Assembly: GCF_013002715.1 (NCBI RefSeq)
Contig: NZ_JABENB010000001.1
Location: 1,860,001-1,924,000 of the forward strand
Direction: 5' to 3'
Source: Flexivirga aerilata
GTDB taxonomy: Bacteria; Actinomycetota; Actinomycetes; Actinomycetales; Dermatophilaceae
Length of the DNA stretch: 64,000 nucleotides
The notes beneath the pieces were generated by a model, which saw nothing but the letters and a program-made list of their open reading frames with translations, was not told the origin of the DNA and searched no databases. Each line of letters opens with the position of its first letter. Position 1 is the first letter of the stretch. Below are positions 20,687-37,398 of the stretch, piece by piece. Made by a program: the position numbers and the translations under genes.

Positions 20687-22249
20687 ATGCACCAGAAGGC
20701 ACCGACCATCACGCCGTCGTGGGCGCTCGCACCACTCGGCGGCCTGCTCGCCGGTGTCGTCACGGTGGGCATCGCGGAGTTTCTCGCCGGTGTCGTGCAG
20801 CGCATGGGGTGGAGCAACGGCACCCCGTCGCCGGTGCTCGCCGTCGGCGGCGCGTTCATCGACCGCACTCCGCCCTGGCTGAAGACCTTCGCCGTCGACA
20901 CCTTCGGCACTCACGACAAGCAGGTGCTGCTCGGCGGCATCGCGGTCGTGCTGGTGCTGCTCAGTCTGCTGATCGGGTGGCTGGCGCGCACCCGCTTCAC
21001 GATGACGCTGGTGGTCTTCGTGGGTTTGGTCGCGGTGGCTGCCGCAGCCGTCACGTCACGTCCGCACGCGGGCGTGCTCGACGTCCTACCCCTGCTGGTC
21101 GGGGCGGTCGCCGGCCTTGGCGTGCTCTCGCAGTGGCGGCGAAACCTGTTGGCGCCCAAGGCTTCCGACGACCGCGTCGTGGCGCTCGACCGGCGGCGTG
21201 CGCTGCTGCTCGGCGGAGGGGCCGCGCTCGGCGCGGTGGTCCTCGGTCTCGCCGGGCGGGCGTGGAGCACCGGGGCACGCGCGGTCCAGGACGCGCGCCG
21301 GGCGTTCCGGGTGCCTCGCGTCGCGCGCCCGGTGGCGGTGCCGCCGGGCGCCTCCGTGGGGGTGTCCGGGGTGACGCCGTTCGTCGTACCCAACGCGGAC
21401 TTCTACCGCATCGACACCGCGCTCACGGTGCCGCAGGTCGACCCGGCGAGCTGGCGGCTACGGGTGACCGGCATGGTCGACCGTGAGGTCGAAATCGACT
21501 GGCAGACCTTGCTGTCCAAGCCGATGCAGGAAGCCATGGTCACGCTGATGTGCGTGTCGAACGAGGTTGGCGGAAGTCTCAATGGCAACGCGATCTGGAC
21601 CGGGTGGCCGGTGCGCGAACTCCTCGCCCAGGCCGGGGTGCGGCCCGGCGCCGACATGGTGCTGTCCCGGAGCGTCGACGGCTTCACCGCCGGCACGCCG
21701 ATCGAGGCACTCACCGACGACCGCAACGCGCTGATCGCCGTCGCGATGAACGGCGAGGCGCTGCCGGCCGAGCACGGCTTCCCGGTGCGTCTTGTGGTGC
21801 CGGGGCTCTACGGATATGTGAGCGCGACCAAGTGGCTCACCGAGCTCAAGGTCACCACCTACGCCAGGGACATGGGTTACTGGACGCCGCGCGGCTGGTC
21901 GGCGAAGGGGCCGGTCAAGACATCGTCGCGCATCGACGTGCCCCGCAGCGGCGCCAAGCTGAAGGTGGGCACCATCGCCGTTGCCGGCGTCGCCTGGCAT
22001 CAGCACACCGGCATCGAAAAGGTCCAGGTGAGAGTCGATTCCGGCGACTGGCAGGACGCTCGCCTCGGCACCTCCGCCGGCGCGGACGTATGGCGGCAGT
22101 GGGTCTACGAGTGGTCTGCGACGCCCGGGCACCACACGCTCACCGTGCGGGCGATCGACGCCGTCGGGCAGGTGCAAAGCTCGGTGGTGGCGCCGCCCGC
22201 GCCCGACGGGTCGAGTGGTTATCACTCGGTGTCGGTCACGGTGTCGTGA
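20687..22249 (+). CDS. Membrane-anchored molybdopterin-dependent oxidoreductase (sulfite oxidase family)
   Basis: 520 residues. The N-terminal third holds about four hydrophobic helices (roughly residues 12-35, 75-95, 100-120, 160-185), followed by an exported oxidoreductase domain. The Mo-ligating Cys is in TLMCVSNEVGG, with the fold-typical GNAIWTGWPV and YGYVSATKWLTEL, then a C-terminal Mo-co dimerisation Ig-like domain. Similar actinobacterial proteins are assigned to sulfite/methionine-sulfoxide-type oxidoreductases, but substrate is unknown. It converges with the flavoprotein gene, overlapping by 14 bases. Confidence 0.9.
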   Translation: MHQKAPTITPSWALAPLGGLLAGVVTVGIAEFLAGVVQRMGWSNGTPSPVLAVGGAFIDRTPPWLKTFAVDTFGTHDKQVLLGGIAVVLVLLSLLIGWLARTRFTMTLVVFVGLVAVAAAAVTSRPHAGVLDVLPLLVGAVAGLGVLSQWRRNLLAPKASDDRVVALDRRRALLLGGGAALGAVVLGLAGRAWSTGARAVQDARRAFRVPRVARPVAVPPGASVGVSGVTPFVVPNADFYRIDTALTVPQVDPASWRLRVTGMVDREVEIDWQTLLSKPMQEAMVTLMCVSNEVGGSLNGNAIWTGWPVRELLAQAGVRPGADMVLSRSVDGFTAGTPIEALTDDRNALIAVAMNGEALPAEHGFPVRLVVPGLYGYVSATKWLTELKVTTYARDMGYWTPRGWSAKGPVKTSSRIDVPRSGAKLKVGTIAVAGVAWHQHTGIEKVQVRVDSGDWQDARLGTSAGADVWRQWVYEWSATPGHHTLTVRAIDAVGQVQSSVVAPPAPDGSSGYHSVSVTVS

Positions 22250-23471
22250 CCTGCTGCCCGAGCTCGTCCAGTGGCACGGACTCGTCGGCCAAGGCGACCG
22301 CATCGACCTGGGCATGACTCTCGATCAACCCGCGGATCGTGTCGGCGGCGCCCCAGGAGTTCGCGTTGAGACCGGCCTGAATGACATTGTCCTGCAACCA
22401 GAAGGCCATGAAACTGCTATCGGTGGGGTCGCCCCGCAGGACCAACCGGTGCGTCGCATCGGGGCGGCCGGTGACTTCGATGGTCACGTCATACTGGGTG
22501 GAGAAGAAGTAAGGCACCCGCTCGTAGACGCCGTCAGCGCCGAGCATCGACGAGCCGGCGAAGCCGCCTTGCTGCATCGCGTTGTCCCAGTGCTCGACCC
22601 GGATGGCCTCCGCGTAGCGAGGATGGTCCGCCCTCGCGACGTCGCCAGCGGCGTACACCTCGGGTGCGCTCGTGCGTAGTCGGTCGTCGACCAGGACGCC
22701 GCGGTCGACGCGGATGCCCGCCTGCTCGGCCAGTTCGGTGTTGGGCTCGGCGCCGACGGCGACCAACACCAGGTCGGTCTCGATGACGTCGCCACCGTCG
22801 GTGCGGACCCCCGTGACGCGGCCGCCTTTGCCGTCGATGCCGGTGACGAGCCGACCGGCGCGCAAGTCCACTCCGTTGTCGGTGTGCCGGACACCGAACG
22901 CCCGGCCGATTTCGGCGCCCAGGACAGACTCGAGTGGAACTGTCAGCGGATCGAGCACTGTCACCTCAGCCCCCAGCGAACGGGCCGTGGCCGCAACCTC
23001 CGACCCCACCCAACCCGCACCCACGATGGTCAGGTGCACTCCGGGCGCGAGACGTGCGCGAAGCGCGTCGGAGTCGTCGATCGTGCGAAGGTAGTGCACG
23101 CCGTCCAGGTCGATCCCGGGCAACGCAGGGATGCGCGGGCGAGCGCCGGTCGCGAGGAGCAACTGATCGTAGGCGATGTCGTCGCCGTCATCCACGGACA
23201 GGCGCTGCGAGGCGGTGTCGATCGCGGTCGCCCGGGTGCCAAGACGGAGGTCGACGGCCAACTCCCGATAGCGATCCTCGGGGTGCACCAGCAGCTCCTC
23301 GTGTCCGTCCTTGCCCCGAAGGTATCCCTTGGACAGACCTGGCCGCTGATACGGCAGGTGCGACTCCGCGCCGACGAGGACGATAGCGCCGTCGTGACCA
23401 CGGTCGCGCAGCGCACTGGCGGCGTGGGCACCGGCGAGGCTGGCGCCCACGATCACAATTGTGCTGGGCAT
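22236..23471 (-). CDS. Ferredoxin-reductase-type FAD/NAD(P) oxidoreductase
   Basis: 411-residue flavoprotein of the rubredoxin/ferredoxin reductase type that feeds P450s and ring hydroxylases (BenD/ThcD-like). FAD site VIVGASLAGAHAASAL at the N-terminus, NAD(P) site VGAGWVGSEVAATARSLGA near 150, second FAD motif VYAAGDVA near 270, and a C-terminal reductase domain. No Fe-S motif of its own. It is the last gene of a minus-strand operon, 28 bases after the multicopper oxidase, divergent from the phz operon. It may supply electrons for phenazine tailoring or reduce phenazines, which is inference. No ferredoxin gene is adjacent. Confidence 0.9.
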   Translation of the reverse strand: MPSTIVIVGASLAGAHAASALRDRGHDGAIVLVGAESHLPYQRPGLSKGYLRGKDGHEELLVHPEDRYRELAVDLRLGTRATAIDTASQRLSVDDGDDIAYDQLLLATGARPRIPALPGIDLDGVHYLRTIDDSDALRARLAPGVHLTIVGAGWVGSEVAATARSLGAEVTVLDPLTVPLESVLGAEIGRAFGVRHTDNGVDLRAGRLVTGIDGKGGRVTGVRTDGGDVIETDLVLVAVGAEPNTELAEQAGIRVDRGVLVDDRLRTSAPEVYAAGDVARADHPRYAEAIRVEHWDNAMQQGGFAGSSMLGADGVYERVPYFFSTQYDVTIEVTGRPDATHRLVLRGDPTDSSFMAFWLQDNVIQAGLNANSWGAADTIRGLIESHAQVDAVALADESVPLDELGQQVTTP

Positions 23472-23499: not shown

Positions 23500-25053
23500 T
23501 CAGATGACTTTGAAGTTGGCCATCATGGCCATGTCTTCGTGCTCGGAGTTATGGCAATGGAAGACGAATCGACCTCGGTATGCGTCGAATCGGGTGATGA
23601 CCTCGGCGGCTTCGCCAGGACGCAGGTCGATGGTGTCCTTCACGCCTGTGTCGAAGGCTCCCGGCGGCTTGCCCCCACGGGACAGCACCTGGAAACCGAC
23701 CTGGTGCAGGTGGATCGGGTGGTGCAAGTCGGTGATGAAGCGCCAGATCTCGACCGCGCCCAGTCTTGGCTCCGCAGCGAAGTAGTCCGGGGCGAAGGGG
23801 CGGCCGTTGATCACCCAACCGGCGTGGCCACCGTGCACTTTGCCCGCGCGGAACGAGAACTCCCGGGTCACTGTGGCATCCGAGCGCTGAAGCGGCTGGA
23901 TCTGTCTGAGCGCAGCTGGGATCCGGCTCTCATCGGCCGCGCGACGGACGACGTTGAAGCGCATGACGCGGCTGGTAGTTCCCCTGCCGAGGGAGTTGAC
24001 CAGTTCCACCTTGGCGCCTACCCGGACCTTTGCGAAGTCGATGACGAGGTCAAATCGTTCGGCCGGTGCGATGACGAGGTGCTGATGCTCTCGTGGCCGG
24101 TCGAGCAGGCCCTGATCGGCGCCGATCTGCACGAACGGCACCGGCTTGCCGTCGACCCGGAACGCGAGGTCGTAGCGACGAGCATTGGACGCGTTGAGGA
24201 TTCGCAGGCGATACCGGGCAGCGTCGACCGGATGCTCAGGCCAGGGTGCACCGTTGACCAGGATGACGTCGCCGAACACGCCCTCGATATACGTCTCCCG
24301 CACACCCGGTGTGCGGGTCAGCGTCGGGTCCTTCGACGGGTAGGCGAACTGGCCGTCGGCGGCGAATGCGCGGTCGGCGATCGCCAGCGGCAGATCGCGG
24401 ACGCCGGAGGGCAGCCCGAGCCCCTGCTCGTGGTCGTCGGAGACCAGATGGAATCCGGCCAGGCCGCGGTAGACCGCGGGGCCGGTGAAGTCCATCCGGT
24501 GATCGTGGTACCAGAGGGTGGCGGCTGGCTGCTGCAGGGGATACACATAACGCCGCGAGCCGCGGGTGAGCTTCGCGAGCTGGTCGCCCATGGGTGCGGA
24601 GGCCGCCCAACCGTTACGGGGCAGGACCAGATCGGTTGGATATCCGTCGGATTCGGCAGGCGTGCGTGCTCCGTGCAGGTGGACAACCGTCGGCACCGGC
24701 AGCTGGTTGTCGTGCTCGACCTCGGTGCGGCGGCCGCTGCGGCTGACGATCGTCGGCCCGGGAAATCTCCCGTCATACCCCCAGATCGGGGTCTGCACAC
24801 CCGGCAGGATCTCGGCGATCGCCTCGCGCTGCACCATGCGGTAGCTGTCATGGTCGGACCCACTGCTGACCGGCCGGGCGACGGGCGGGATCGGGAGCGG
24901 GAGTTTGTACGGCGCCGGAAGCTTCAGCTGACTGCGCACCAGGTGCCCGGTGCTGCCCGAGCCGATGACTGCCGGCAGACCGACCCCCGCGCCGACGGTC
25001 AGGCCCGCGCCGACGACCCCACCGACGAACATGCGGCGTGACATGTGGGTCAT
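23500..25053 (-). CDS. Multicopper oxidase (CotA / phenoxazinone-synthase-like), exported by Tat
   Basis: Three-cupredoxin-domain laccase-type oxidase, 517 residues. The start at 25053 gives a twin-arginine-like signal (SRRMFVGG then a hydrophobic stretch), so it probably folds in the cytoplasm and acts outside. All copper motifs are present: VVHLHG, LWYHDHRM, HPIHLHQVGF and the type 1/3 HCHNSEHEDMAM. The architecture is that of bilirubin oxidase, CotA and Streptomyces phenoxazinone synthase, which oxidatively couples o-aminophenols. Its start overlaps the upstream membrane gene by 4 bases. The divergent position beside phz genes makes oxidative phenazine chemistry or detoxification plausible but unproven. 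Confidence 0.92.
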   Translation of the reverse strand: MTHMSRRMFVGGVVGAGLTVGAGVGLPAVIGSGSTGHLVRSQLKLPAPYKLPLPIPPVARPVSSGSDHDSYRMVQREAIAEILPGVQTPIWGYDGRFPGPTIVSRSGRRTEVEHDNQLPVPTVVHLHGARTPAESDGYPTDLVLPRNGWAASAPMGDQLAKLTRGSRRYVYPLQQPAATLWYHDHRMDFTGPAVYRGLAGFHLVSDDHEQGLGLPSGVRDLPLAIADRAFAADGQFAYPSKDPTLTRTPGVRETYIEGVFGDVILVNGAPWPEHPVDAARYRLRILNASNARRYDLAFRVDGKPVPFVQIGADQGLLDRPREHQHLVIAPAERFDLVIDFAKVRVGAKVELVNSLGRGTTSRVMRFNVVRRAADESRIPAALRQIQPLQRSDATVTREFSFRAGKVHGGHAGWVINGRPFAPDYFAAEPRLGAVEIWRFITDLHHPIHLHQVGFQVLSRGGKPPGAFDTGVKDTIDLRPGEAAEVITRFDAYRGRFVFHCHNSEHEDMAMMANFKVI

Positions 25054-25478
25054 GGCTGCTCCGACGAGCGGGACGGACGCTTCCACCGGAAGATCCACAC
25101 GGCGAAGAGGACGACGCCGACTGCGATGCTGACCCCGAGTGGAATGTGCAGGTAGAGCGCGCCGGCGACGCCGGCGAAATACTGGGCGGTCTCGGCGATC
25201 ACGATCAGCGCGGTGAAACCCGCGGCGGCCCACGAGTGGCTCGACCAGCCGAACCCGAGGGTGAGGAGCAGCTGCAGCAGGCCGCCGTACCAGACCAGGT
25301 CGGCGCCGTGCTGGTGCAGGCCGAGCATGTCGTAACGGCCGCTGAGGAAGAGTCCGGCGAACGACGCCTGCCCCATGACGGCGACGACCTGGATCACCGC
25401 GAGCACGCGCACGACACCGAGCAACACGCCGGTCGTCCTGGACGGTCGTGCTTCCGGCGCTGCGTCGACTGCGACCAT
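25050..25478 (-). CDS. Small four-helix membrane protein
   Basis: 142 residues with about four hydrophobic helices and a short basic C-terminus (RWKRPSRSSEQP). The start at 25478 is chosen because an AAGGAGAG ribosome site lies just upstream. Two ATGs further upstream lack one. It is the first gene of the operon membrane protein, multicopper oxidase, flavoprotein, with a 4-base overlap to the oxidase. I do not recognise the family; the topology resembles DoxX-like proteins. A role in export or as a quinone/electron link to the oxidase is conceivable. Confidence 0.7.
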   Translation of the reverse strand: MVAVDAAPEARPSRTTGVLLGVVRVLAVIQVVAVMGQASFAGLFLSGRYDMLGLHQHGADLVWYGGLLQLLLTLGFGWSSHSWAAAGFTALIVIAETAQYFAGVAGALYLHIPLGVSIAVGVVLFAVWIFRWKRPSRSSEQP

Positions 25479-25842
25479 CGTCTCTCCTTCGGAGCGCATC
25501 AAGATGCTTCGAAGTTATGTCGCTGCGGATATGACGTCCAAGACCAGTTGGGTTATGGCGGCATGTCTCTCGAGCTATCAGATTGCATCGTCGAGGACTG
25601 CGAAAACATCGGGATATGTCGCGAAAAGCGTTGGTATTGAAAAGGATTCAGCGACTCGCGGGCGCCGGATTGTGGTATGTGAACAGTGCCTGTCGTGGTG
25701 GTTTCCCACGGCTTCATCCAGCGGGTCTTGTGGCGACTTCCAGGCGACCCACAGGCTTTCACCTGGTCGATCGACCGGGGCTGGCGGAAGTGCGGCGCGG
25801 CCCCTCGGTGGTGCAAGCAGATGTGAGTAAGGGGAAGACGAG
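25479..25842. promoter_or_regulatory. Divergent promoter region between the phz and oxidase operons
   Basis: 364 bases with no convincing gene. It is notably A/T-richer than the flanking oxidase genes. Three similar motifs occur: TTATGTCGC (25515), ATATGACG (25529) and ATATGTCGC (25614), plus the palindrome GGTCGATCGACC near 25769. They are candidate operators for the LysR protein at the other end of the cluster. I cannot assign -10/-35 elements with confidence. A good ribosome site (AAGGGGAAG) ends the region in front of phzB. Confidence 0.5.
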
Positions 25843-26346
25843 ATGTCGGAAGACAAGATTCTGCGCAAGCCGGATCCGGAAGTGTTCGCAAGCGACGTGG
25901 ATCTGCGACGCAAGAACCAGGCGACGGTTGAGACGTACATGGTCTGCACTGGGCAGGCTCGGCTCCGTCGGCATGAGCTGTTCGCGGAGGACGGGGAGGG
26001 CGGTCTGTGGACCTCGGACAAGAACGAGCCAATTGTTACGAAGGGCCGGGAGCGGCTCGCAGAGCACGCGAAATGGTCGCTGCGCTGTTTTCCGGACTGG
26101 GAGTGGTACAACATCGAGATTTTTGCAACCCACGACCCCAACCGTTTCTGGGTGGAATGCGACGGGCGTGGAACAATCGATTTCGATGGATATCCAACGG
26201 GTTTCTACGAAAATCACTTCATGCATTCATTTGAGCTTGCAGACGGGAAAATTCTTCGCAATCGCGAGTTCATGAATCCCCTGAGGCAGATGGCTGCTCT
26301 GGAAATCGACGTTCCGCAAATCTCCAGGGAGGGAATTCCGCTATGA
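25843..26346 (+). CDS. phzB: Phenazine biosynthesis protein PhzB (PhzA/B family)
   Basis: NTF2-fold protein of 167 residues that accelerates condensation of two PhzF products to the tricyclic phenazine precursor. It reads very close to Pseudomonas PhzB: QARLRRHELFAEDG, LAEHAKWS, CFPDWEWYN, WVECDGRG and ILRNREFMN are all recognisable. Residues matching the known catalytic set (Arg43, His75, Ser79, Glu142) are present. It opens the operon behind an AAGGGGAAG ribosome site and overlaps phzC by 4 bases. Base composition is lower in GC than flanking genes. Confidence 0.95.
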   Translation: MSEDKILRKPDPEVFASDVDLRRKNQATVETYMVCTGQARLRRHELFAEDGEGGLWTSDKNEPIVTKGRERLAEHAKWSLRCFPDWEWYNIEIFATHDPNRFWVECDGRGTIDFDGYPTGFYENHFMHSFELADGKILRNREFMNPLRQMAALEIDVPQISREGIPL

Positions 26347-27548
26347 CGACGAACCTCATGCCGCGTGAAAGAACCGGGCCGCTCGCGTCGATCGAAGAGC
26401 GGATGGCAGCCGCGCTCCAGCAACCGCAATGGCCCGATCCAGATCGGGTCGACGCGGTCCGTGCCGCGCTGCGCGGACGCCCGGCGTTGGTTCGGCCCGA
26501 GCATGTCATCGAGTTGCGCACGCGACTGGCGGCGGTGGCCGGTGGGGAGGCGGTCGTCATCCAAGCCGGCGACTGCGCAGAGCACCCCGAGGAGACGGAT
26601 CCGATCTCAGTGGGCCGCAAGGTCGCGTTGATCAGTTCGCTCGCCGGGATCCTCGGTGCTGAGTTGGGTTGCCCAGTGGTCAAAGTGGGCCGGATCGCAG
26701 GTCAGTTCTCCAAGCCTCGATCGCGTGCGACTGAACTGGTGGACGGTGTCGAACTCACGGCGTACCGCGGTGAGATGGTCAACTCCCAGCAGCCGACGGA
26801 GTCCGACCGGCGCCCCGACCCGATGCGGATGTTGACCGGCTATCTCGTGGCTTCGGACGTCATGCGCCACTTGGGCTGGCTGACGTCCACCCGTGGTGCC
26901 AGGAGCATGGCCAGGACGTGGACCTCACACGAGGCGCTCCTCTTGGACTACGAGCTGCCAATGGTCCGGACGGACGACTACGGCCGGCTCTTTCTCGCGT
27001 CGACCCATTGGCCGTGGGTGGGTGCTCGCACCCGGAACCTGAATGGTCCACACCTGGAACTCATGAGTCGCATCATTAATCCGGTCGCCGTCAAGATCGG
27101 GCCAGATGTTGGGGTTCCGGAGATTCGCGAGCTTTGCCGCTTGCTCGATCCGCACCGGCTGCCCGGCCGGCTGACGCTGATCTCGCGGATGGGTGCGGGC
27201 CGAATCGGTGAGGGGCTACCCAGTCTGGTCGGTGCGGTTCGCGATGCCGGACATCCGGTGATCTGGATGTGCGATCCGATGCACGGGAACACCATCACGG
27301 TCGCGGGCCGAAAAACGCGAATGGCACGGGACATCGTCTCGGAAGCGGAGAATTTTGTCCGAATAGTCCGCAATGCCGGGGTGCATCCCGGAGGACTCCA
27401 CTTGGAGGCTACGCCCGACGCTGTCACTGAATGTGACCTTGTGGACGGCCCTGCTGAGCCGGGCACGTACCGCACTCTGTGCGACCCGCGGTTGAACCCT
27501 GAGCAGGCGACTCGCATTGCCTCGGCGTGGGCGCGGGGTGTGCGGTGA
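26343..27548 (+). CDS. phzC: Class II DAHP synthase for phenazine synthesis
   Basis: Condenses phosphoenolpyruvate and erythrose-4-phosphate to DAHP, feeding the shikimate pathway toward phenazines. 401 residues, the length of PhzC. Plant-type (class II) motifs are visible: IQAGDCAEHPEE, VKVGRIAGQFSKPRS, the metal-binding CDPMHGNT and LHLEATPD. As in PhzC proteins, the long N-terminal regulatory extension of housekeeping class II enzymes is absent, so escape from aromatic feedback is expected. ATGA overlap with phzB, GTGA overlap with phzD. Confidence 0.94.
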   Translation: MTTNLMPRERTGPLASIEERMAAALQQPQWPDPDRVDAVRAALRGRPALVRPEHVIELRTRLAAVAGGEAVVIQAGDCAEHPEETDPISVGRKVALISSLAGILGAELGCPVVKVGRIAGQFSKPRSRATELVDGVELTAYRGEMVNSQQPTESDRRPDPMRMLTGYLVASDVMRHLGWLTSTRGARSMARTWTSHEALLLDYELPMVRTDDYGRLFLASTHWPWVGARTRNLNGPHLELMSRIINPVAVKIGPDVGVPEIRELCRLLDPHRLPGRLTLISRMGAGRIGEGLPSLVGAVRDAGHPVIWMCDPMHGNTITVAGRKTRMARDIVSEAENFVRIVRNAGVHPGGLHLEATPDAVTECDLVDGPAEPGTYRTLCDPRLNPEQATRIASAWARGVR

Positions 27549-28189
27549 ACGCCACAGCGAGCGGGGCGACTGGGTTGCCAGTCATCGACAGCTATCGGCT
27601 GCCTGCCCGAAGACCGACGGTGCCGGTGGCATTGGGTTGGACCGTTTCGCCGGAGCGCGCCGTCGTCCTTGTCCACGATATGCAGCGGTACTTCGTGGAG
27701 CCATTCCCCGAACGCATGCGAGCGGACCTCGTGGGCAACATTGCCGCGGTCAGTCAAGCGCTCCGTGAGCGAGGGGCGATGGTGGCGTTTTCTGCACAGC
27801 CGGGCGATATGACGAGCAGTGAGCGCGGCCTGCTGAACGATTTTTGGGGGCCGGGAATGAAGGCCTCGGCCGATCAGCGTCAGATTGTGGCAGAGCTTAC
27901 TCCTCATCCAAGTGACTGGCATTTCACGAAATGGCGATACAGCGCGTTCCACAGGTCGGATCTGCTGCAGTGCATGCGGGAGTCCGGACGGGACCAGTTG
28001 ATTTTGTGCGGCGTGTATGCACATGTCGGCATTCTGGCGACGGCTCTCGACGCATTCACAAACGACGTACAGACCTTCATCGTCGCGGATGCCGTCGCCG
28101 ATTTCTCTGAGCAGGAGCATCAGTGGGCTCTGGACTATGCGGGCCGTCGGTGTGCTCAGATCGTTATGAGCACCGAGGTGGTCGCATGA
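27545..28189 (+). CDS. phzD: Isochorismatase PhzD (ADIC hydrolase)
   Basis: Hydrolyses the vinyl ether of 2-amino-2-deoxyisochorismate (ADIC) to trans-2,3-dihydro-3-hydroxyanthranilate. 214 residues. The catalytic Asp is in LVHDMQRYF and the catalytic Lys in TKWRYSAF. LCGVYAHVG has Gly where cysteine hydrolases of the fold have Cys, as in true PhzD. The GTG at 27545 is chosen because it overlaps the phzC stop. PhzD-type GLLNDFWGPGMKAS is present. ATGA overlap with phzE. Confidence 0.95.
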   Translation: MNATASGATGLPVIDSYRLPARRPTVPVALGWTVSPERAVVLVHDMQRYFVEPFPERMRADLVGNIAAVSQALRERGAMVAFSAQPGDMTSSERGLLNDFWGPGMKASADQRQIVAELTPHPSDWHFTKWRYSAFHRSDLLQCMRESGRDQLILCGVYAHVGILATALDAFTNDVQTFIVADAVADFSEQEHQWALDYAGRRCAQIVMSTEVVA

Positions 28190-30027
28190 GTCTCTTGCAG
28201 CAGATCCTTAAATCGCCGCCACCTGCCTTCGCCATCATCGCCCGCGGTGAAGACAAGAAGGTCAGTGTGCATGTGGGCGATGTGGCTTATCCCCGCACCA
28301 TCGATGAACTACCCGACGGTGACATGGGGCCGACGATCGCTGTCGTTCCTTTTCGGCAGGTTTCTGAGCGAGGGTTTACCTGCGAGGACGACGGCACCCC
28401 ACTCCTTGCCATCCGATCATTTTCCCACGAGCACATTTCGCTGAGTGAAGCACTTGAAGACCTGCCTGATGTCGACACCGAACTCGTGGGCGGAGCGTTC
28501 GACCAGTCCGACGATGAGTACGCCGACATGGTGAACACCGTCAAACAGGACGTGATCAGTGCCGGTGACGGAGCGAACTTCGTGCTCGCACGACAGTATG
28601 AGGCGCGCCTCGCCCGGCCCGACGCGAACGCCGCTCCGAGCGTGTTGCGCCGACTGCTGGCGAACGAGGTATCGGCGCACTGGACGTTTCTCGTGCACGC
28701 AGGAGGTCGCACCCTCGTCGGCGCGAGCCCGGAGTTGCACGTGAGTCTGCGAGGCGGCATCGCAGCAATGACGCCGATCAGCGGCACGTACCGATATCCG
28801 GTGACGGGTCCGAGCGAGCTGGGCGTCCTGCGATTTCTTCGCGATCAGAAGGAGACGAGTGAGCTCTTCATGGTCGTGGACGAGGAACTCAAGATGATGG
28901 CCGAGATCTGCTCGGAATCGCCGACGGTCACCGGGCCGTTCTTGCGCACCATGGCGCGTCTCGCTCACACCGAGTACCGAATCGAGGGCAGGTGCGACAA
29001 GGATCCACGGGTTGTGCTCCGCGAGACACTGCTTGCCCCGACCGTCACTGGTGCGCCGTTGGAGAACGCTTGCCGGGTAATTGCTCGGCACGAGCCGTCT
29101 CCTCGGGGGTACTACAGCGGGGTAGCCGCATGGATTGACTCCGATGACGACGGGACGGCGGCACTGGATTCCGCAATCCTTATCCGCACCTGTGAGATTG
29201 ACTCGGAGGGTGGGGTCCGCTTGGGTGTCGGAGCCACACTCGTGAGTGGTTCGGATCCCAGGACCGAGGTTGCGGAGACACACACCAAGGTCGCGACACT
29301 CCTGGCCTCCTTCACGAGAACTGCAGAGGTTCCGGACCTGCATACCGAATCTGTGCAGCGCGCCCTTGCGCAACGTAACTCCCATCTGTCTCAGTTCTGG
29401 GCCGGCGCACGGCCAACGCGGCCGATGCAGCGGCGCTGCCGTGGCCTGTTGGTTGACGCGGAGGATTCGTTCACCGCGATGCTTGAGGCCCAGCTGGACG
29501 CGATCGGGATCGAGGTGCGCACGTTACGCGTCAACGAAGTCCACGGTCTCGACCATGACTCTGATTTGCTCATTCTCGGCCCCGGTCCTGGTGACCCGAC
29601 CGACCTGTCACTACCGAAGAATCAGGTCCTCGGGTTCCTTGCGGACCGGGCGTTGAGTGCGAAGCAGCCCATGCTCGCGATCTGCCTCAGCCATCAGATC
29701 TTGTCGGCCAGGATGGGCGTCTCGGTTCGGCGCAAGGAGACGCCGAACCAAGGTGTGCAACAAGAGATCGATCTTTTCGGTGCGCGCGAGCGGGTTGGCT
29801 TCTACAACTCCTTTGCAGCAGTGTTGGCGGGAGATCAGCCGCCACCGGCCGACCTGGAGATTGCCTGTGATCCTGCGACGGGCGAGGTACATGCCATGCG
29901 GGCGGCCGGCCTATCGTCGATGCAGTTCCACCCGGAGTCCGTGCTGACGATGAACGGGCCGGATCTCCTGGCTCGGGAGATTGATCATGTCTTGGCGACG
30001 TCACCGGTCCGAGCGGAGGCGGATTGA
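28186..30027 (+). CDS. phzE: ADIC synthase PhzE (anthranilate-synthase-like fusion)
   Basis: Converts chorismate and glutamine-derived ammonia to ADIC, the committed step. 613 residues in two domains: an N-terminal chorismate-binding MST domain (about 1-420; PISGTYRYP, FMVVDEELKMMAEIC, GRCDKDPRVVLRETLLAPTVTGAP, YYSGVAAW) and a C-terminal class I glutamine amidotransferase (about 430-613) with nucleophile Cys500 in AICLSHQ and His/Glu in QFHPES. A single-chain fusion of this order is characteristic of PhzE as opposed to split TrpE/TrpG. The ATG at 28186 overlaps phzD by 4 bases. Confidence 0.95.
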   Translation: MSLLQQILKSPPPAFAIIARGEDKKVSVHVGDVAYPRTIDELPDGDMGPTIAVVPFRQVSERGFTCEDDGTPLLAIRSFSHEHISLSEALEDLPDVDTELVGGAFDQSDDEYADMVNTVKQDVISAGDGANFVLARQYEARLARPDANAAPSVLRRLLANEVSAHWTFLVHAGGRTLVGASPELHVSLRGGIAAMTPISGTYRYPVTGPSELGVLRFLRDQKETSELFMVVDEELKMMAEICSESPTVTGPFLRTMARLAHTEYRIEGRCDKDPRVVLRETLLAPTVTGAPLENACRVIARHEPSPRGYYSGVAAWIDSDDDGTAALDSAILIRTCEIDSEGGVRLGVGATLVSGSDPRTEVAETHTKVATLLASFTRTAEVPDLHTESVQRALAQRNSHLSQFWAGARPTRPMQRRCRGLLVDAEDSFTAMLEAQLDAIGIEVRTLRVNEVHGLDHDSDLLILGPGPGDPTDLSLPKNQVLGFLADRALSAKQPMLAICLSHQILSARMGVSVRRKETPNQGVQQEIDLFGARERVGFYNSFAAVLAGDQPPPADLEIACDPATGEVHAMRAAGLSSMQFHPESVLTMNGPDLLAREIDHVLATSPVRAEAD

Positions 30028-30857
30028 TGAGACGCTATGTGACTGTCGACTGTTTCACGAAGACCAGGCTGCACGGCAATCCGGTGGCAGTCTTCGACGA
30101 TGCAGACGGGATGAGTCCGGGGCTGATGCAACGCGTCGCTCGGGAAATGAACCTCTCAGAGACCACTTTCGTGACTCGTCGGCCACAACGTGGAGAGTTC
30201 TCGGTAAGGATCTTCACCCCGGTCAACGAACTCGCATTCGCAGGCCACCCTTTGCTCGGCACGGCGCTTGCGCTCGCAGCGGAAGCCGAGGGCGGCGAGC
30301 TCGGACTGCATACCCAGATGGGGCGAGTACCGGTGCGCCTGTCGGACGACGACAGCTGTGCGCGTATGACGCAACCCACCCCGACCGTGAAGACGTTCGA
30401 CCGGTCGGAGGATCTGTTGGTCGCCCTCGGCGTGCGTGAGGCCACCATGCCGTTGGAGATTTACCACAACGGACCGCGGCACGTGCTCGTCGGTCTGGCC
30501 AGTATCGCTGAGTTGGCGAGTCTGCGGCCCGATCATCGCGCGCTCGGCGCCTTCGAAGACATGGCTGTGAACTGTTTCGCCGGCTCCGGGACGCAGTGGC
30601 GAAACCGAATGTTTTCGCCGGCCTACGGTGTGGTCGAGGACGCCGCGACCGGCTCGGCCGCCGGCCCGATCGCCATACACCTCGCGCGCCATGGAGCGGC
30701 CACACTCGGCACACCGCTACGCATCACCCAGGGCGTCGAGATGGGGAGGCCGTCGGATATGTACGCGTGTGTTTCGCAAGACCACGACGGTGGAGCCCGG
30801 GCGGTCCAGGTCTGGGGCCACGGCATCCTATGCGCGGAAGGTCGAATGCATGTCTGA
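30027..30857 (+). CDS. phzF: Dihydrohydroxyanthranilate isomerase PhzF
   Basis: Isomerises trans-2,3-dihydro-3-hydroxyanthranilate to the reactive aminoketone that dimerises to the phenazine skeleton. 276 residues, diaminopimelate-epimerase fold. Catalytic Glu is in MNLSETTFV. RIFTPVNELAFAGHPLLGTA, EIYHNGPRHVLVGL and SPAYGVVEDAATGSAAGPIAIHLARHG match PhzF closely. ATG at 30027 with an upstream GGAGG, sharing one base with the phzE stop. A TTG three bases earlier is the weaker choice. The 3' end overlaps phzG by 8 bases. Confidence 0.95.
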   Translation: MRRYVTVDCFTKTRLHGNPVAVFDDADGMSPGLMQRVAREMNLSETTFVTRRPQRGEFSVRIFTPVNELAFAGHPLLGTALALAAEAEGGELGLHTQMGRVPVRLSDDDSCARMTQPTPTVKTFDRSEDLLVALGVREATMPLEIYHNGPRHVLVGLASIAELASLRPDHRALGAFEDMAVNCFAGSGTQWRNRMFSPAYGVVEDAATGSAAGPIAIHLARHGAATLGTPLRITQGVEMGRPSDMYACVSQDHDGGARAVQVWGHGILCAEGRMHV

Positions 30858-31503
30858 CCTTGCCGAGCAACACCGATCCGAGTCGATGACGGCTGCTCGG
30901 CCGGCCGATTTCCCCGAGTATCACTCGCCGCCGCCCGATCCAATGCCGTTGCTGCACAAATGGATCGAGGAGGCCGCCGAGCTTGGAGTCCGAGAACCAT
31001 TGGCTCTCGCGCTTGCGACGGTCGACGCCACCGGCCAGCCATCCAGCCGCACCGTCGTGGTTGGTGCGGTGACCAACGTGGGTCTGGTTATCGCCACCCA
31101 CTCAACGAGCCGCAAGGCCCACGATCTCAGGTCGAACGAGCGCGCGAGCGGTCTGCTCTACTGGCGTGAAACGAGCCAGCAATTGCAGTTCGAGGGACGA
31201 ATGATCGCTCTCGACGAAGCATCGTCCGATCGACTCTGGGAGAAGCGGCCCGTCTTCACCCACGCGATGACGGTCGCATCCGAGCAAAGCGCGACGCTGG
31301 CAGATCCCGCTGAACTGCGTTCTCGTGCAGCCCAGTTGGCCACCGGAGCACCCCTGCCTCGGCCCGCGCGGTACACGGCATACGAGTTCGTCATATCGGC
31401 GATCGAGTTCTGGGCGAACGGCACAGACCGCCTGCACGAGCGGCTGCGCTACACCCGGACACCGGCATCGGCCGGCTGGTCCTGGAACCGGCTTCAACCG
31501 TAA
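30850..31503 (+). CDS. phzG: PhzG, FMN-dependent phenazine oxidase
   Basis: Pyridoxamine-5'-phosphate-oxidase-fold flavoenzyme that oxidises the reduced tricyclic intermediates toward phenazine-1,6-dicarboxylic and phenazine-1-carboxylic acid. 217 residues. FMN-binding segments ATGQPSSRTVVVGAV, TSRKAHDLRSNERASGLLYW and the C-terminal EFWANGTDRLHERLRY are those of the PhzG/PdxH family. ATG at 30850 lies inside the phzF end. Position in the operon and absence of other pyridoxine genes favour PhzG over PdxH. 20 bases separate it from the next gene. Confidence 0.93.
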   Translation: MSDLAEQHRSESMTAARPADFPEYHSPPPDPMPLLHKWIEEAAELGVREPLALALATVDATGQPSSRTVVVGAVTNVGLVIATHSTSRKAHDLRSNERASGLLYWRETSQQLQFEGRMIALDEASSDRLWEKRPVFTHAMTVASEQSATLADPAELRSRAAQLATGAPLPRPARYTAYEFVISAIEFWANGTDRLHERLRYTRTPASAGWSWNRLQP

Positions 31504-31523
31504 ATCGGCAGAGGAGAGTGACA

Positions 31524-31967
31524 TTGAAACCCGGACTCGCATTGATTGACGCTTACCTCGACGTCAGCCACGAGGCGCGCCTGAACCGCTACCAGCTTTA
31601 TGACGAGAACGGTGCCGCATCGTTGTGGTTCACCGATCGTGGCAGACCGATTACGGTTCGTGGCCGCGACAACCTGCGTAAGCACAACGAGCTGTCCATC
31701 CAAGTGCTGCCCGACTGGCGGTGGGGCGATGTCGAGATCCATCTCGATGACAAACGCCGCACGGCGTGGGTTGAATGCACAGGGGAGGGGACGATCCAGT
31801 TTCCTGGCTACCCCTGGGGTCACTATCGCAACAGCTTCGTGCACCGCTTCGAGTTCGGGGACGGCCTGATCGTGTCGACGCGTGAGTACACCAACCCGTT
31901 GGAACACATGCGAGCATTGCGCATCGCGACCCCACAGATCCGGCGCGATTGGATACCGGAAGCATGA
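31524..31967 (+). CDS. Second PhzA/B-family protein at the operon end
   Basis: 147-residue NTF2-fold paralogue of PhzB, shortened at the N-terminus. ARLNRYQLYDENG, LRKHNELS, VLPDWRWGD, WVECTGEG and STREYTNPL align with the first copy at a constant offset of 21 residues. The equivalents of the catalytic Arg, His, Ser and Glu (Arg22, His54, Ser58, Glu121) are kept, unlike Pseudomonas PhzA. TTG at 31524 is chosen because the GAGGAG site lies 7 bases before it. A GTG at 31518 would sit too close. ATGA overlap with the methyltransferase. It could form hetero-oligomers with PhzB or handle a different product. Confidence 0.88.
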   Translation: MKPGLALIDAYLDVSHEARLNRYQLYDENGAASLWFTDRGRPITVRGRDNLRKHNELSIQVLPDWRWGDVEIHLDDKRRTAWVECTGEGTIQFPGYPWGHYRNSFVHRFEFGDGLIVSTREYTNPLEHMRALRIATPQIRRDWIPEA

Positions 31968-32998
31968 CCGGGTCGGGCCGGACGGAGACGTCCGTGATCG
32001 AACTCTTGACGGGCGGATGGCGCGCGCAGCTCGCGCGCGTCGGGGTCGAGCTGGGCATACCAGATCTCCTCGCTGGTGCTGATCTCACGGTCGCCGAGCT
32101 GAGTACACGCACCGCCGTCCCGCAGAACCTTATGTATCGGCTGATGCGCGGACTGGACTCGATAGGCATCGCCGCGAGGATTCCGGACAGGCCGGACGGC
32201 ACGACCGACGCCGGCGCGACCTACGCGCTCGGGCCGTTGGGTGTCCACATGGTCGATGGGCCGGGGAGCATGCGTGACGCATGCCTGCTCTACGGTGACG
32301 AATTCCACAGCGCGTGGGGCAACGCTCCAGTGGCCTTCGGCTCCTCCGCAACCGGATTCGAGGCTACCTACGGCACCGAGCTGATCCCGTATCTCGCGGC
32401 GAATCCACCTGTCGCTAAACGGTTCCAGAGCGCATTGGCGGCGACAAGTTTCTACTTTGATCTGCTGGCTGACGCGATGGAGGTGCCCGTTCACGGCGTG
32501 GTCGTGGACATTGCGGGCGGAAGCGGCGCGTTGCTCACCCAGGTGCTGCAGGCCCGTCCGCATGCCCGTGGTGTGCTCACCGACTTGCCACACATGCTCG
32601 CGATCGCCGATGGTGCCTTTGCCGATGCCGGCTTGACCGAGCGAGTGACCACGATGTCCGTCGACCTGTTCAGGGGACGGTTGCCCAAGGATGCGGACAT
32701 CTACGTCTTGTCACGCGTGCTCGGCGACTGGAGCGACGAAGAGTGCGAGCGGATACTCACCAACATCAAGGTCGCAATGGGCTGCCGATCGAGACTGTGG
32801 ATAGTGGAGCGGCTCACCAGGGATGACGGCTCCGCGCCACTGGCGACGCTTTGGGACCTCCACCTCCACGTCGTCAACGGGGGACGTCAGCGATCGATCC
32901 GGGAGTATCAACGGCTGGCCGAGGACTGCGGGTTGGAAATCCTCGAGGACAAGCGCCTTCCTGCGGACAACGCCGCGCTGGCCCTGCGGCTCAGGTAG
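31964..32998 (+). CDS. PhzM-like SAM-dependent methyltransferase
   Basis: 344 residues: an N-terminal dimerisation/winged-helix domain (AQLARVGVELGIPDLLAGADLTVAEL onward is the family pattern) and a C-terminal class I methyltransferase with SAM motif VDIAGGSGALL near residue 183. The family includes plant COMT-type O-methyltransferases and Pseudomonas PhzM, which N-methylates phenazine-1-carboxylate. The usual LHDW motif, whose His is the base in O-methyltransferases, reads VLGDWSDEECERIL here. Coupled by ATGA to the second PhzA/B gene, so it belongs to the operon. Probable phenazine tailoring enzyme; N- versus O-methylation is undecided. Confidence 0.88.
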   Translation: MTGSGRTETSVIELLTGGWRAQLARVGVELGIPDLLAGADLTVAELSTRTAVPQNLMYRLMRGLDSIGIAARIPDRPDGTTDAGATYALGPLGVHMVDGPGSMRDACLLYGDEFHSAWGNAPVAFGSSATGFEATYGTELIPYLAANPPVAKRFQSALAATSFYFDLLADAMEVPVHGVVVDIAGGSGALLTQVLQARPHARGVLTDLPHMLAIADGAFADAGLTERVTTMSVDLFRGRLPKDADIYVLSRVLGDWSDEECERILTNIKVAMGCRSRLWIVERLTRDDGSAPLATLWDLHLHVVNGGRQRSIREYQRLAEDCGLEILEDKRLPADNAALALRLR

Positions 32999-33908
32999 CG
33001 TGCCGACCGCGCCTCCGTGACTCTTGCGCACGGTGGTTCATGAACGGTCGGCTGGTGACGACTTCCCGGAAAGCAACTGCGGGCGCGGGAAGCTCGCGGT
33101 CTCTGCGCCACATGAGCCGCAGGGTGCGCTGGGCGCCGGGCGAGTCGATGTGGGCCCACGCCACCGGCGCGTGAGTGCCGGCCCGCTGGGACATGGCCGG
33201 AATCAGGCCGATGCCCAGACCAGCGCTGATGAGGTCTTGGGAGACGCCCGGTTCGTTGGACTCGCACGCGATGATCGGCTGGGCGCCGGCATCGGCGAAG
33301 AGGCGCTCCAGCAACTCCCGCTGCCAATGCCCACGGCGCGTCGTCACCCAGTCCTCGGTGGTGAGGTCAGCAACGGGTATCGCGTCCTGCTGGGCACGCG
33401 GGTGTGACTGTGGCATGGCGAGGAGCACCTCCTCCCGCACCAACTCGACCGACTCGAGATCTTCGGCATTCACGGATTGGGATGCGATGCCGAAATCTAT
33501 TTCCCCGGAACGCAATTGGCGGCGCATTTCTCCGGCAGCCGCCTGCTGCAGGCGCACTCTAATGCCGGGTTTGGCACGACGAAAGGTGGTGAGTACGCCG
33601 GTGAGGGTGAGCAGCGACTCGGCTGCGACCACGACCTCTCCGCCGGCACCGCCCTTGAGGTCGTCCAAGGCGCGGCGTCCGTCATCCAGCTCGCTCAGCG
33701 CACGTTCGACGTGTCGCAGGAACACCCGACCGTTCTCGTTCAGACGGACGCGACCCTGCCGGGTGAACAGCGGCATGCCCAGCTCGTCCTCGAGCCTTGC
33801 GATCGTCCGGCTCAGCGACGGCTGGGCGACGCGCAGCTCGTCGGCGGCCCGGCTGAGGTGCTCGAGCCGGGCAACCGTGCGGAAATATTGCAGTGCGAGT
33901 AGATCCAT
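32991..33908 (-). CDS. LysR-family transcriptional regulator
   Basis: 305 residues: N-terminal winged HTH (QYFRTVARLEHLSRAADELRVAQPSLSRTIARLEDELGMPLF, quoted here only as landmarks AADELRVAQPSLSRTI and LGMPLF) and a C-terminal periplasmic-binding-like effector domain (about 90-290). A GAGGAGG ribosome site precedes the ATG at 33908. It converges on the methyltransferase with an 8-base overlap and has no adjacent divergent target, so its likely operators are its own promoter or the divergent phz/oxidase region. I infer, without proof, that it regulates the phenazine cluster. Confidence 0.9.
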   Translation of the reverse strand: MDLLALQYFRTVARLEHLSRAADELRVAQPSLSRTIARLEDELGMPLFTRQGRVRLNENGRVFLRHVERALSELDDGRRALDDLKGGAGGEVVVAAESLLTLTGVLTTFRRAKPGIRVRLQQAAAGEMRRQLRSGEIDFGIASQSVNAEDLESVELVREEVLLAMPQSHPRAQQDAIPVADLTTEDWVTTRRGHWQRELLERLFADAGAQPIIACESNEPGVSQDLISAGLGIGLIPAMSQRAGTHAPVAWAHIDSPGAQRTLRLMWRRDRELPAPAVAFREVVTSRPFMNHRAQESRRRGRHAT

Positions 33909-34770: not shown

Positions 34771-35502
34771 ATGGACCTGCAGGTTTGCGTGAACGGAGCA
34801 CGGTCCGTGAGTGAACATCCGCGGCTGTCATCCGATGCCTCCGAGGTGGCGGAGGAGGCCGCCGCCGCGGTCGACGCCGGCGCCGGCAGCGTGCACCTGC
34901 ACCCCAAGGACGCCGACGGCACGGACACCCTGGACGAGGATTGCGTTGCGCACTGGGTGCGGGAAGTGCGGCGGAGGTGTCCGGGCGTCCCGGTCGGGGT
35001 GACGACGGGGGCATGGATCGCACCCGACGTGGACCGCCGAGTGGCCGCCATCGCGGCCTGGAGCACGATGCCCGACTTCGCCTCCGTCAACTGGCACGAG
35101 CAAGGAGCGGAGGCGGTCGCCGCCGTCCTGCTGGAGCACGGTGTCGGCATCGAAGCCGGGATCTGGCACCTCGACGGCCTGCGGGCGTGGCAACGCTCCG
35201 CGCTGCGCAGTCAGTGTCTGCGGGTGCTGATCGAGCTGCCGGACATCGGGGACGTCGACGCAGTGCGGCAGCATGCCGAGTCACTCGTGACCGGGGTGCG
35301 ACGGGTCGCCCCGGGCTCCTCGATCCTGCTGCACGGGGAGGAACGCTCCACCTGGCCGGCGATCGACCTCGCGGTCGAGGCAGAGCTGCCGACGCGCATC
35401 GGGCTGGAGGACACGCTCACCCTGCCCGACGGCACCCCGGCGAGCGGGAACGCCCAGCTTGTCGAGGAGGTGGTGCGATGCTTCGGCCGGCGGGCGCGGT
35501 GA
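34771..35502 (+). CDS. BKACE-family beta-keto acid cleavage enzyme (DUF849)
   Basis: 243-residue TIM-barrel enzyme of the 3-keto-5-aminohexanoate cleavage (BKACE) family. These enzymes use Zn to split beta-keto acids with acetyl-CoA. The Zn-binding VHLHPKD near residue 50, the Glu of VEAGIWHLDG-like segment (IEAGIWHLDGL) and the C-terminal IGLEDTLTLPDG support this. It is shorter than the canonical lysine-fermentation enzyme of about 275 residues, as are many BKACE members of unassigned substrate. ATG at 34771 is preceded by GAGGAGG at suitable distance. Confidence 0.82.
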   Translation: MDLQVCVNGARSVSEHPRLSSDASEVAEEAAAAVDAGAGSVHLHPKDADGTDTLDEDCVAHWVREVRRRCPGVPVGVTTGAWIAPDVDRRVAAIAAWSTMPDFASVNWHEQGAEAVAAVLLEHGVGIEAGIWHLDGLRAWQRSALRSQCLRVLIELPDIGDVDAVRQHAESLVTGVRRVAPGSSILLHGEERSTWPAIDLAVEAELPTRIGLEDTLTLPDGTPASGNAQLVEEVVRCFGRRAR

Positions 35503-35884: not shown

Positions 35885-36772
35885 ATGACCCTGATGAAGC
35901 TGCCCGACGGGCGCGACCTCGACATCCGGATCAGCGGAGCGGACGACGGACCCGTCTTGCTCTTCCACCACGGCACACCGGGGTCGGTGCTCCCGCGGTC
36001 CGCGATGGCCGAGTCGGCGAAGGAGCGGGGCATTCGCCTGGTGACGTATTCCCGTGCGGGGTATGGCGATTCGACGCGCAACCCGGGCCGGTCCGTGGCC
36101 GATGTCGCGGACGATGCCGCCGCCATACTCGACCACCTGGGTGTCGAGAAGGCGATGACCGCCGGATGGTCCGGCGGCGGGCCGCACGCGCTGGCGACGG
36201 GAGCCCTGCTGCCCGACCGCGTCACCGGCATCCTCAGCATTGCGGGTGTCGCGCCGTACGACGAGCCGGACCTGGCCTTCCTCCAGGGCATGGGGGAGGG
36301 CAACCACGTCGAGTTCAATGCTGCTGCCGAGGGCGAGGACGCGCTGCGCCGAGTGCTCGAGCCGATGCGCGCCGAGCTCGCCGACGCCACGCCCGACGAC
36401 ATCATCGGCGAGCTGAGCACCCTGCTGCCCGACGTCGACCGGGCCGTCATCACCGACGAGACCGGTGCGGAGGTCGCGGCCAACTTCGCCGAGGGTCTCA
36501 AGAACGGCGTCGACGGCTGGGCCGACGACGACCTGGCCTTCACCCGGCCGTGGGGTTTCGACCTCAGCAGCATCACCGTGCCGACCTTCGTCTGGCAGGG
36601 CAGCCTCGACCTGATGGTGCCGTTCGCGCACGGCCAATGGCTGGCTGGCAACATCCCGGGCGCGACCGCGCACCTGGTCGACGGCGAGGGGCACCTGTCG
36701 ATCGGCATCGGCGCCATCGACGCGATGCTGGACGAACTGCGTGAGACCTTCGCCGAGCGGGACCCGAGATGA
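35885..36772 (+). CDS. Alpha/beta hydrolase
   Basis: 295 residues. Oxyanion hole HHGTPGS near residue 21, nucleophile elbow GWSGGGPHAL near residue 98, acid Asp in WQGSLDLMVP and catalytic His in VDGEGHLSI. This is a complete triad of the classical fold with a lid region rich in Asp/Glu. Substrate unknown. The start at 35885 fits the family; longer frames upstream are unsupported. It overlaps the glutathione peroxidase gene by 4 bases (ATGA), so the two are coupled. Confidence 0.9.
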   Translation: MTLMKLPDGRDLDIRISGADDGPVLLFHHGTPGSVLPRSAMAESAKERGIRLVTYSRAGYGDSTRNPGRSVADVADDAAAILDHLGVEKAMTAGWSGGGPHALATGALLPDRVTGILSIAGVAPYDEPDLAFLQGMGEGNHVEFNAAAEGEDALRRVLEPMRAELADATPDDIIGELSTLLPDVDRAVITDETGAEVAANFAEGLKNGVDGWADDDLAFTRPWGFDLSSITVPTFVWQGSLDLMVPFAHGQWLAGNIPGATAHLVDGEGHLSIGIGAIDAMLDELRETFAERDPR

Positions 36773-37378: not shown

Positions 37379-37398
37379 ACGGAACGCCGAGTCAGCTG

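Follow-up and report, generated by a model that had tools for sequence, protein, structure and literature searches.

A complete phenazine operon of endophenazine-type layout in Flexivirga aerilata

In Flexivirga aerilata (GCF_013002715.1), we investigated a 64,000-nucleotide stretch of contig NZ_JABENB010000001.1 (positions 1,860,001 to 1,924,000; here called the window, with coordinates counted from its first base) that contains an eight-gene operon for the biosynthesis of a phenazine, a type of pigment with redox activity and antibiotic action. The initial annotation, made from the DNA letters only, had read positions 25843-32998 as phzB-C-D-E-F-G followed by a second PhzA/B-like gene and a methyltransferase gene, forming a complete phenazine operon in an actinobacterium. 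All eight assignments were confirmed by Pfam, NCBIfam and PDB searches (Table 1), and the completeness of the operon is supported by protein families, structural relatives and intact frames. The core set is complete, with phzB, phzD, phzE, phzF and phzG present in addition to phzC, and the reading frames of all eight genes are stop-free. Phenazine enzymes are the best solved-structure relatives of all seven operon proteins searched in PDB, that is, all but PhzC, which scores under the TIGR01358 cut-off of NCBIfam (389.7 versus 614.7). The structure search for PhzD was run on the translation from 27527. The E-values and the existence of a syntenic copy in the sister species Flexivirga meconopsidis exclude a chance match.

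Table 1. Features of the phenazine locus of F. aerilata and its surroundings, in window coordinates
Feature	Coordinates	Strand	Evidence
phzB (PhzB1), PhzA/B-family tricycle-forming enzyme, canonical active site	25843..26346	+	Pfam PF03284, 252.6 bits; PDB 3ff0, 5e-74
phzC, class II 3-deoxy-D-arabino-heptulosonate 7-phosphate synthase	26343..27548	+	Pfam PF01474, 8e-120; placed by Pfam
phzD, isochorismatase	27545..28189	+	PF00857; PDB 1nf9, 8e-79; GTG start at 27545 inferred
phzE, 2-amino-2-deoxyisochorismate (ADIC) synthase (chorismate-binding + glutamine amidotransferase)	28186..30027	+	PF00425 + PF00117; PDB 3r74, 1e-166
phzF, trans-2,3-dihydro-3-hydroxyanthranilate (DHHA) isomerase	30027..30857	+	PhzC-PhzF (Pfam); TIGR00654 above cut-off; PDB 1t6k, 2e-97
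phzG, flavin mononucleotide-dependent oxidase	30850..31503	+	PNPOx/PhzG (Pfam); NCBIfam NF038138, 275.6 bits vs cut-off 270; PDB 1ty9, 3e-62
phzB2 (phzA-type), second PhzA/B protein, separate clade	31518..31967	+	PF03284, 159.3 bits; PDB 3b4o, 7e-43
PhzM/PpzM-like S-adenosylmethionine methyltransferase	31964..32998	+	PF00891 (Methyltransf_2); LaPhzM 6c5b, 1e-45; PhzM 2ip2, 1e-42
LysR regulator, convergent with the operon	32991..33908	-	PF00126 + PF03466
Intergenic stretch upstream of phzB, presumed promoter/operator	25479..25842		aligned with F. meconopsidis, 89% mean column identity
Flavin adenine dinucleotide (FAD) pyridine-nucleotide reductase, phz+-only region	22236..23471	-	PF07992 + PF14759
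Multicopper oxidase, phz+-only region	23500..25098	-	Cu-oxidase domains

The eight genes are tightly packed on one strand, and their seven junctions all overlap or are spaced by at most 14 nt, as the initial annotation had described (overlapping or nearly so). Read by eye, the overlaps are ATGA at phzB/phzC, phzD/phzE and phzB2/methyltransferase, GTGA at phzC/phzD and TGATG at phzE/phzF; phzF and phzG share 8 bp, and 14 nt separate phzG from phzB2. Start codons were chosen among the in-frame candidates, and five differ from the first in-frame start (GTG at 27545 for phzD and ATG at 28186, 30027, 30850 and 31964 for phzE, phzF, phzG and the methyltransferase gene). The 4-bp overlaps with the preceding stop arise at the moved starts of phzD, phzE and the methyltransferase gene. 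Two frames of the + strand (23539-25041 and 25038-25640), which belong to no protein family, were discarded as wrong-strand.

Aligned to 3b4o, PhzB1 is canonical at R38, R41, D57, H73, W76, S77, E140 and Q147 (BcPhzA/B numbering, also used below). In the printed alignments, inspected by eye, PhzD retains HDMQ and TKWRY, PhzE retains CLSHQ and FHPES, and PhzF retains LSE, AGHP and EDAATGS, motifs that we take to be catalytic. E45 of PhzF is described as catalytic (PMC5524880), and the ligand site of PhzA/B is described as lined by His73, Trp76, Asp57, Gln147 and Glu140 in crystal structures (PMC11998002).

The whole operon is found in synteny in F. meconopsidis, with proteins 87-92% identical at the amino acid level (87-96% for the locus overall). 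The same locus appears in F. meconopsidis Q11 as region 2.2, where antiSMASH called a phenazine region and gave 30% similarity with an endophenazine cluster (PMC10745605, Table 1). Between both species, the ratio of nonsynonymous to synonymous substitution rates (dN/dS), computed with our own Nei-Gojobori script, varies from 0.072 to 0.199 among the eight genes (0.116 for PhzB2 and 0.155 for the methyltransferase). The operon is therefore maintained, with all its genes under purifying selection. In the family, a PhzA/B gene was found in 3 of 186 genomes, which are F. aerilata, F. meconopsidis (2 of the 5 Flexivirga genomes) and G020. Matches were found in 9 of 396 genomes sampled from the order (8 above the cut-off) and in 37 of 394 sampled from the class (25 above it), many of the latter being weak. 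One same-order genome (G395) contains a lone divergent PhzA/B-family gene (L047, 10025-10486) in which Tyr takes the place of His73; the 20 kb fetched there contain no further phz match.

Homologues of the genes at 20687-22249 and 35885-36772, which are 13.6 kb apart in the window, are separated by only 1.9-2.7 kb in three Flexivirga genomes that are phz-negative. In the 9-9.5 kb around the matching site, none of these three has a match to any gene between 22236 and 34600; all of these genes are present in F. meconopsidis. A beta-keto acid cleavage enzyme gene (34771-35502, +) is unmatched in the syntenic stretch of F. meconopsidis and of the three phz-negative genomes alike. In the 4.0 Mb genome of F. 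aerilata, the GC content at third codon positions (GC3) is 0.68-0.79 in the eight operon genes versus 0.90-0.96 in three flanking genes, and sliding GC falls to 0.62-0.64. Among the neighbours, GC3 is 0.79 in the LysR, 0.82 in the multicopper oxidase and 0.84 in the reductase gene. The small genes at 25050 (0.89) and 34091 (0.91) have host-like GC3, and the acquired segment may therefore be shorter than the region that is absent. We consider it probable that this operon of foreign composition was horizontally acquired. A mobile island was considered and rejected: the four tRNAs of the window lie at 37398 and beyond, none of them at an edge of the region, and the genes called between 14377 and 46415 include no integrase.

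The initial annotation had regarded the gene order as Pseudomonas-like and unusual for actinobacteria, which our survey of other loci does not support. PhzB2 had 107 matches, and the order was compared in 79 loci that come from the best 80 of them, including a few non-actinobacteria; frequencies among these loci are biased by the use of the PhzB2 type as query. Since B-C-D-E-F-G is the commonest arrangement in this collection (29 of the 79 loci, of which 24 lack a PhzB2-type copy; 27 of the 64 loci that span 15 kb or more) and is also that of ppzBCDEFGA in Streptomyces anulatus, it is not specially Pseudomonas-like. The longer order B-C-D-E-F-G-B2 was found in 4 of the 79 loci, one from Flexivirga (L058) and three from Streptomyces (L062, L065 and L066), and in L063 PhzB2 is placed ahead of the B-C-D-E-F-G block. 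From 24 plasmid records with a match, 5 (all Streptomyces) carry PhzB2 at 55-58%, and the seven-gene block is present in the four that were read (L170-L173). These four are linear plasmids of 133-682 kb. An aromatic prenyltransferase is annotated in three of the stretches, with mevalonate genes instead in L171; two contain a type III polyketide synthase and one contains condensation-domain proteins.

The clade of PhzB2 is the most informative part of the system. Core phz genes are described as nearly always single-copy, and the same source points to one Streptomyces in which a 'ketosteroid isomerase' and a phzM homologue adjoin the core (PMC7591250), which may be the pairing of PhzB2 and methyltransferase seen here. 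Within 104 aligned PhzA/B rows, 15 share the signature Y45, L76 (I in L069), Y141, T142 and H147; they correspond to 14 loci because L048 and L067 are one contig. The signature rows retain R38, R41, D57, H73, S77, W86, Y120, E140, R160 and P164, and L/I76, T142 and H147 occur in none of the 89 remaining rows. This residue split played no part in gathering the loci. In a tree of 102 PhzA/B rows, the 14 PhzB2 copies form one group (support 100/99, recovered in 100% of 200 bootstrap trees), which is unchanged on leaving L117 out. Among the plasmid copies, compared by eye, three of four keep all five signature residues and that of L171 differs at 141 and 147. A PhzM-like gene comes directly after PhzB2 in F. 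aerilata, L058 and three Nocardiopsis loci (L067-L069), and a gene of the PTase_Orf2 group, a blast group of which one member (from L063) was named by Pfam, is present in the stretch fetched for L059, L063, L064, L066 and L127. PhzB2 is thus accompanied by a gene for either a PhzM-like enzyme or an aromatic prenyltransferase in 10 of the 12 loci long enough to judge, leaving out L060 and L061 (contigs of about 4 kb). The fetched stretches of L062 and L065 contain neither.

Loci without PhzB2 include those of Streptomyces lomondensis and Lysobacter antibioticus, whose products we take to be derived from phenazine-1,6-dicarboxylic acid (PDC). It has been suggested that organisms with phzA and phzB, endophenazine producers included, make only phenazine-1-carboxylic acid (PCA) and that those without phzA make PDC; the 1,6-dihydroxyphenazine producer of that source is described without phzA (PMC4044012). 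A phzA mutant of Pseudomonas chlororaphis is reported to form PDC alongside PCA (PMC9919295). PhzB2 does not fit the published description of Pseudomonas PhzA, which is of changed catalytic and binding residues (PMC11998002), since it retains H73 and E140. We tentatively propose that PhzB2 represents a distinct, catalytically competent PhzA/B subfamily with a re-packed pocket that commits the actinobacterial pathway to the mono-carboxylate, an actinobacterial 'phzA' that would steer the flux. If true, an active PhzB2 would do what an altered PhzA is thought to do in Pseudomonas, and its presence would predict PCA-derived, N-substitutable phenazines from the genome sequence alone. The signature bears on the old question of how PCA or PDC is decided.

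The operon methyltransferase falls in a PhzM-type group of 25 rows (support 100/99), apart from the LaPhzM group. The tree was rooted at the midpoint, leaving out L041, which duplicates L058, and sequences shorter than 220 aa, and the exact places of PhzM and the Flexivirga pair are unsure owing to their long branches. The usual catalytic His is replaced by Gly in the operon methyltransferase; PhzM is also devoid of this His and LaPhzM keeps it. PhzM is described as having no catalytic base, and ring-nitrogen methylation as needing none (PMC10784701). In S. anulatus, deletion of ppzM abolished the N-methylated endophenazine B, and ppzM is presented as a phenazine N-methyltransferase gene (PMC3326630). 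Given the grouping with PhzM, the missing His and a reaction that needs no base, the enzyme of Flexivirga likely adds a methyl on ring nitrogen N5. It may be likened to PpzM by family membership.

Our best explanation, which we hold to be probable, is a horizontally acquired and maintained phenazine operon with the endophenazine (ppz) layout minus its prenylation half. By analogy with the known families, PhzC would feed the shikimate pathway, PhzE would convert chorismate to ADIC, PhzD would produce DHHA, PhzF would isomerise it and PhzB1 would join two units into the tricycle. PhzB2, as an actinobacterial phzA type, would tilt the outcome to the mono-carboxylate, and PhzG would finish the oxidation to dihydro-phenazine-1-carboxylate. 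The PhzM/PpzM-like enzyme would methylate this skeleton, most likely at N5, and the LysR protein would activate the operon. The initial annotation had proposed a route from chorismate to a methylated phenazine, and this stands as the best reading of the gene set, with the methylation predicted from sequence. PTase_Orf2 found no match in F. aerilata, F. meconopsidis or the Nocardiopsis genome G846, and both B2+ Streptomyces control genomes were matched. We therefore rejected a prenylated product for the two Flexivirga species and suggest N-methylated phenazine-1-carboxylate as the likely product.

Several points weigh against this explanation. We found no Flexivirga phenazine chemistry in the literature searched. 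PhzM-type genes are present in 18 B2-negative loci, and methyltransferase company is thus not specific to PhzB2, which would be equated with PpzA by position and company only. Lavanducyanin as well as marinophenazines of the 1,6-dihydroxyphenazine type are reported from the MAR4 Streptomyces, to which the PhzB2 carriers L059 and L063 belong, apparently in different strains (PMC10897937, PMC4650096), and this counters a neat rule leading from PhzB2 to PCA. In a joined D-E-F-G tree (69 of 95 loci, with all four genes), with or without L117, Flexivirga forms a long branch that splits off deeply and apart from the B2+ Streptomyces. This conflicts with the 102-row tree, where the Flexivirga PhzB2 groups inside the Streptomyces copies. 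Either the B-C-D-E-F-G-A block is old with frequent loss of B2 or B2 moved, and long branches limit the certainty of both trees. No residue is said to mark N- over O-methyltransferases reliably, and some O-methyltransferases likewise lack the His (PMC10784701), as does a group of 4 rows outside the PhzM-type set. PpzM alone is reported as inactive in vitro, and PhzM as requiring PhzS (PMC3326630). A FAD_binding_3 query from L063, taken as PhzS-like, found weak or partial matches of 27-42% in Flexivirga, with 30% in F. aerilata; pyocyanin as end product is accordingly unsupported. Unlike ppz, the genes called from 14377 to 46415 include no mevalonate genes, cytochrome bd, ABC pair or ferredoxin gene, and a ferredoxin query, run without a positive control, had no match in the F. 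aerilata genome.

Another reading is that the pathway is of the PDC type, with PhzB2 as a redundant or inactive duplicate and a methyltransferase making methyl esters or O-methyl ethers of PDC or PCA. PDC is described as the product of most non-Pseudomonas producers (PMC7591250), the S. anulatus cluster expressed in S. coelicolor also yields PCA methyl ester (PMC3326630), and the His criterion is indecisive between N- and O-methylation. However, the retention of H73 and E140, the low dN/dS of PhzB2, a signature common to 14 loci (with I76 in one) and the grouping of the methyltransferase with PhzM, not with LaPhzM, make this reading rather unlikely. PhzB2 could also be a partner or tailoring protein of an N-substituting methyl- or prenyltransferase and not a PCA switch, which would be compatible with the rest of the explanation. 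This would agree with the genes that accompany PhzB2 in the Flexivirga, Nocardiopsis and PTase_Orf2-bearing loci named above, and with the need of PpzM for a further partner in vitro (PMC3326630). We regard it as unlikely, since PhzB2 follows phzG with no such gene adjoining in L062, L065 and L066, PhzM-type genes also occur where PhzB2 is absent, and PhzB2 keeps the site residues of PhzA/B (H73, E140, R38, R41 and D57).

A silent or decaying operon would fit our finding no product in the literature searched and a sigma-70 scan that found 0 sites in the region upstream of phzB, a weak test in a high-GC actinobacterium. It is very unlikely, with every frame intact and constrained in two species and the LysR gene conserved along with them. 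The initial annotation had also raised a dermacozine-type locus, with a product as in Dermacoccus. The family is the same by name and both loci share the phenazine core enzymes, but the dermacozine cluster of Dermacoccus abyssi MT1.1 is given in the order F-C-E-G-H-B, with one PhzB, PhzH (asparagine synthase) and other regulators (PMC7143476, Table 3). The genes called between 14377 and 46415 encode no asparagine synthase domain. The order in the same-family genome G020 (F-C-D-E-G-B, where 1.9 kb separate G from B) is similar to that of D. abyssi, and its PhzB and the Flexivirga PhzB1 belong to different tree groups. Because the cluster architecture differs, the dermacozine reading was rejected as hardly credible.

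Around the operon, the LysR gene is limited to phz+ Flexivirga, being 96% identical in F. meconopsidis and reaching 33-34% at best in the three phz-negative genomes. It is probably the cluster regulator; a role like that of PpzY may be suggested by family likeness. Upstream of the operon, at 25496-25514, an inverted repeat (GCATC-AA-GATGC) and, after it, the palindrome CTTCGAAG are conserved in F. meconopsidis. Both are candidate operators, perhaps acting on the divergent gene at 25050-25478.

The reductase gene is unmatched at the syntenic site of the three phz-negative genomes, and its protein has 41% identity to a Nocardiopsis reductase beside PhzB2. It is possibly a PpzK analogue, which is uncertain because the phz-negative G032 holds an equally similar gene elsewhere. 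The multicopper oxidase gene, also unmatched at that site and present in F. meconopsidis, is 38% identical to one found close to the phz/B2 cluster in Streptomyces sp. Ru71 (L062, 13407-14924), and may be unrelated to phenazines.

Among named clusters, the locus resembles ppz of S. anulatus 9663 and epz of S. cinnamonensis DSM 1042 in the order B-C-D-E-F-G-A, in the PhzM-like methyltransferase gene and in the nearby LysR regulator and FAD-dependent oxidoreductase. The S. anulatus cluster is described as ppzBCDEFGA with ppzM, ppzK, ppzL, ppzY (LysR), cytochrome bd and ABC genes; its ppzM forms part of ppzTUVM, which sits between the core and the mevalonate genes, whereas in Flexivirga the methyltransferase gene is the last of the operon (PMC3326630). 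The clusters of Nocardiopsis suaedae, N. chromatogenes and N. endophytica (L067-L069, L071 and L076) share PhzB2 with a PhzM-like gene directly after it and a LysR gene by phzF, whose product is 54-55% identical to that of Flexivirga, but differ in the core order and in the ferredoxin and reductase genes after the methyltransferase. One of them (L067, 4281-9862, which is also L048) contains cytochrome bd oxidase genes and an ABC pair inside the cluster, as in ppz, and these may protect respiration or supply reduced phenazine. With Pseudomonas phzABCDEFG and phzM, the operon shares all core enzymes, two PhzA/B copies and a PhzM-type methyltransferase; it differs in the 3' place of its second PhzA/B copy, with H73 and E140 retained, and has no close PhzS-like match. 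The Pseudomonas-like or dermacozine reading is replaced by a specific product class, in a genus with no phenazine chemistry found in the literature searched. The system is small (the core, a second PhzA/B, one methyltransferase and one regulator) and also devoid of a ppz-family prenyltransferase, and because of this small size the PhzB2 signature offers a simple test. The locus adds to the known endophenazine-type layout and is not a new kind of system.

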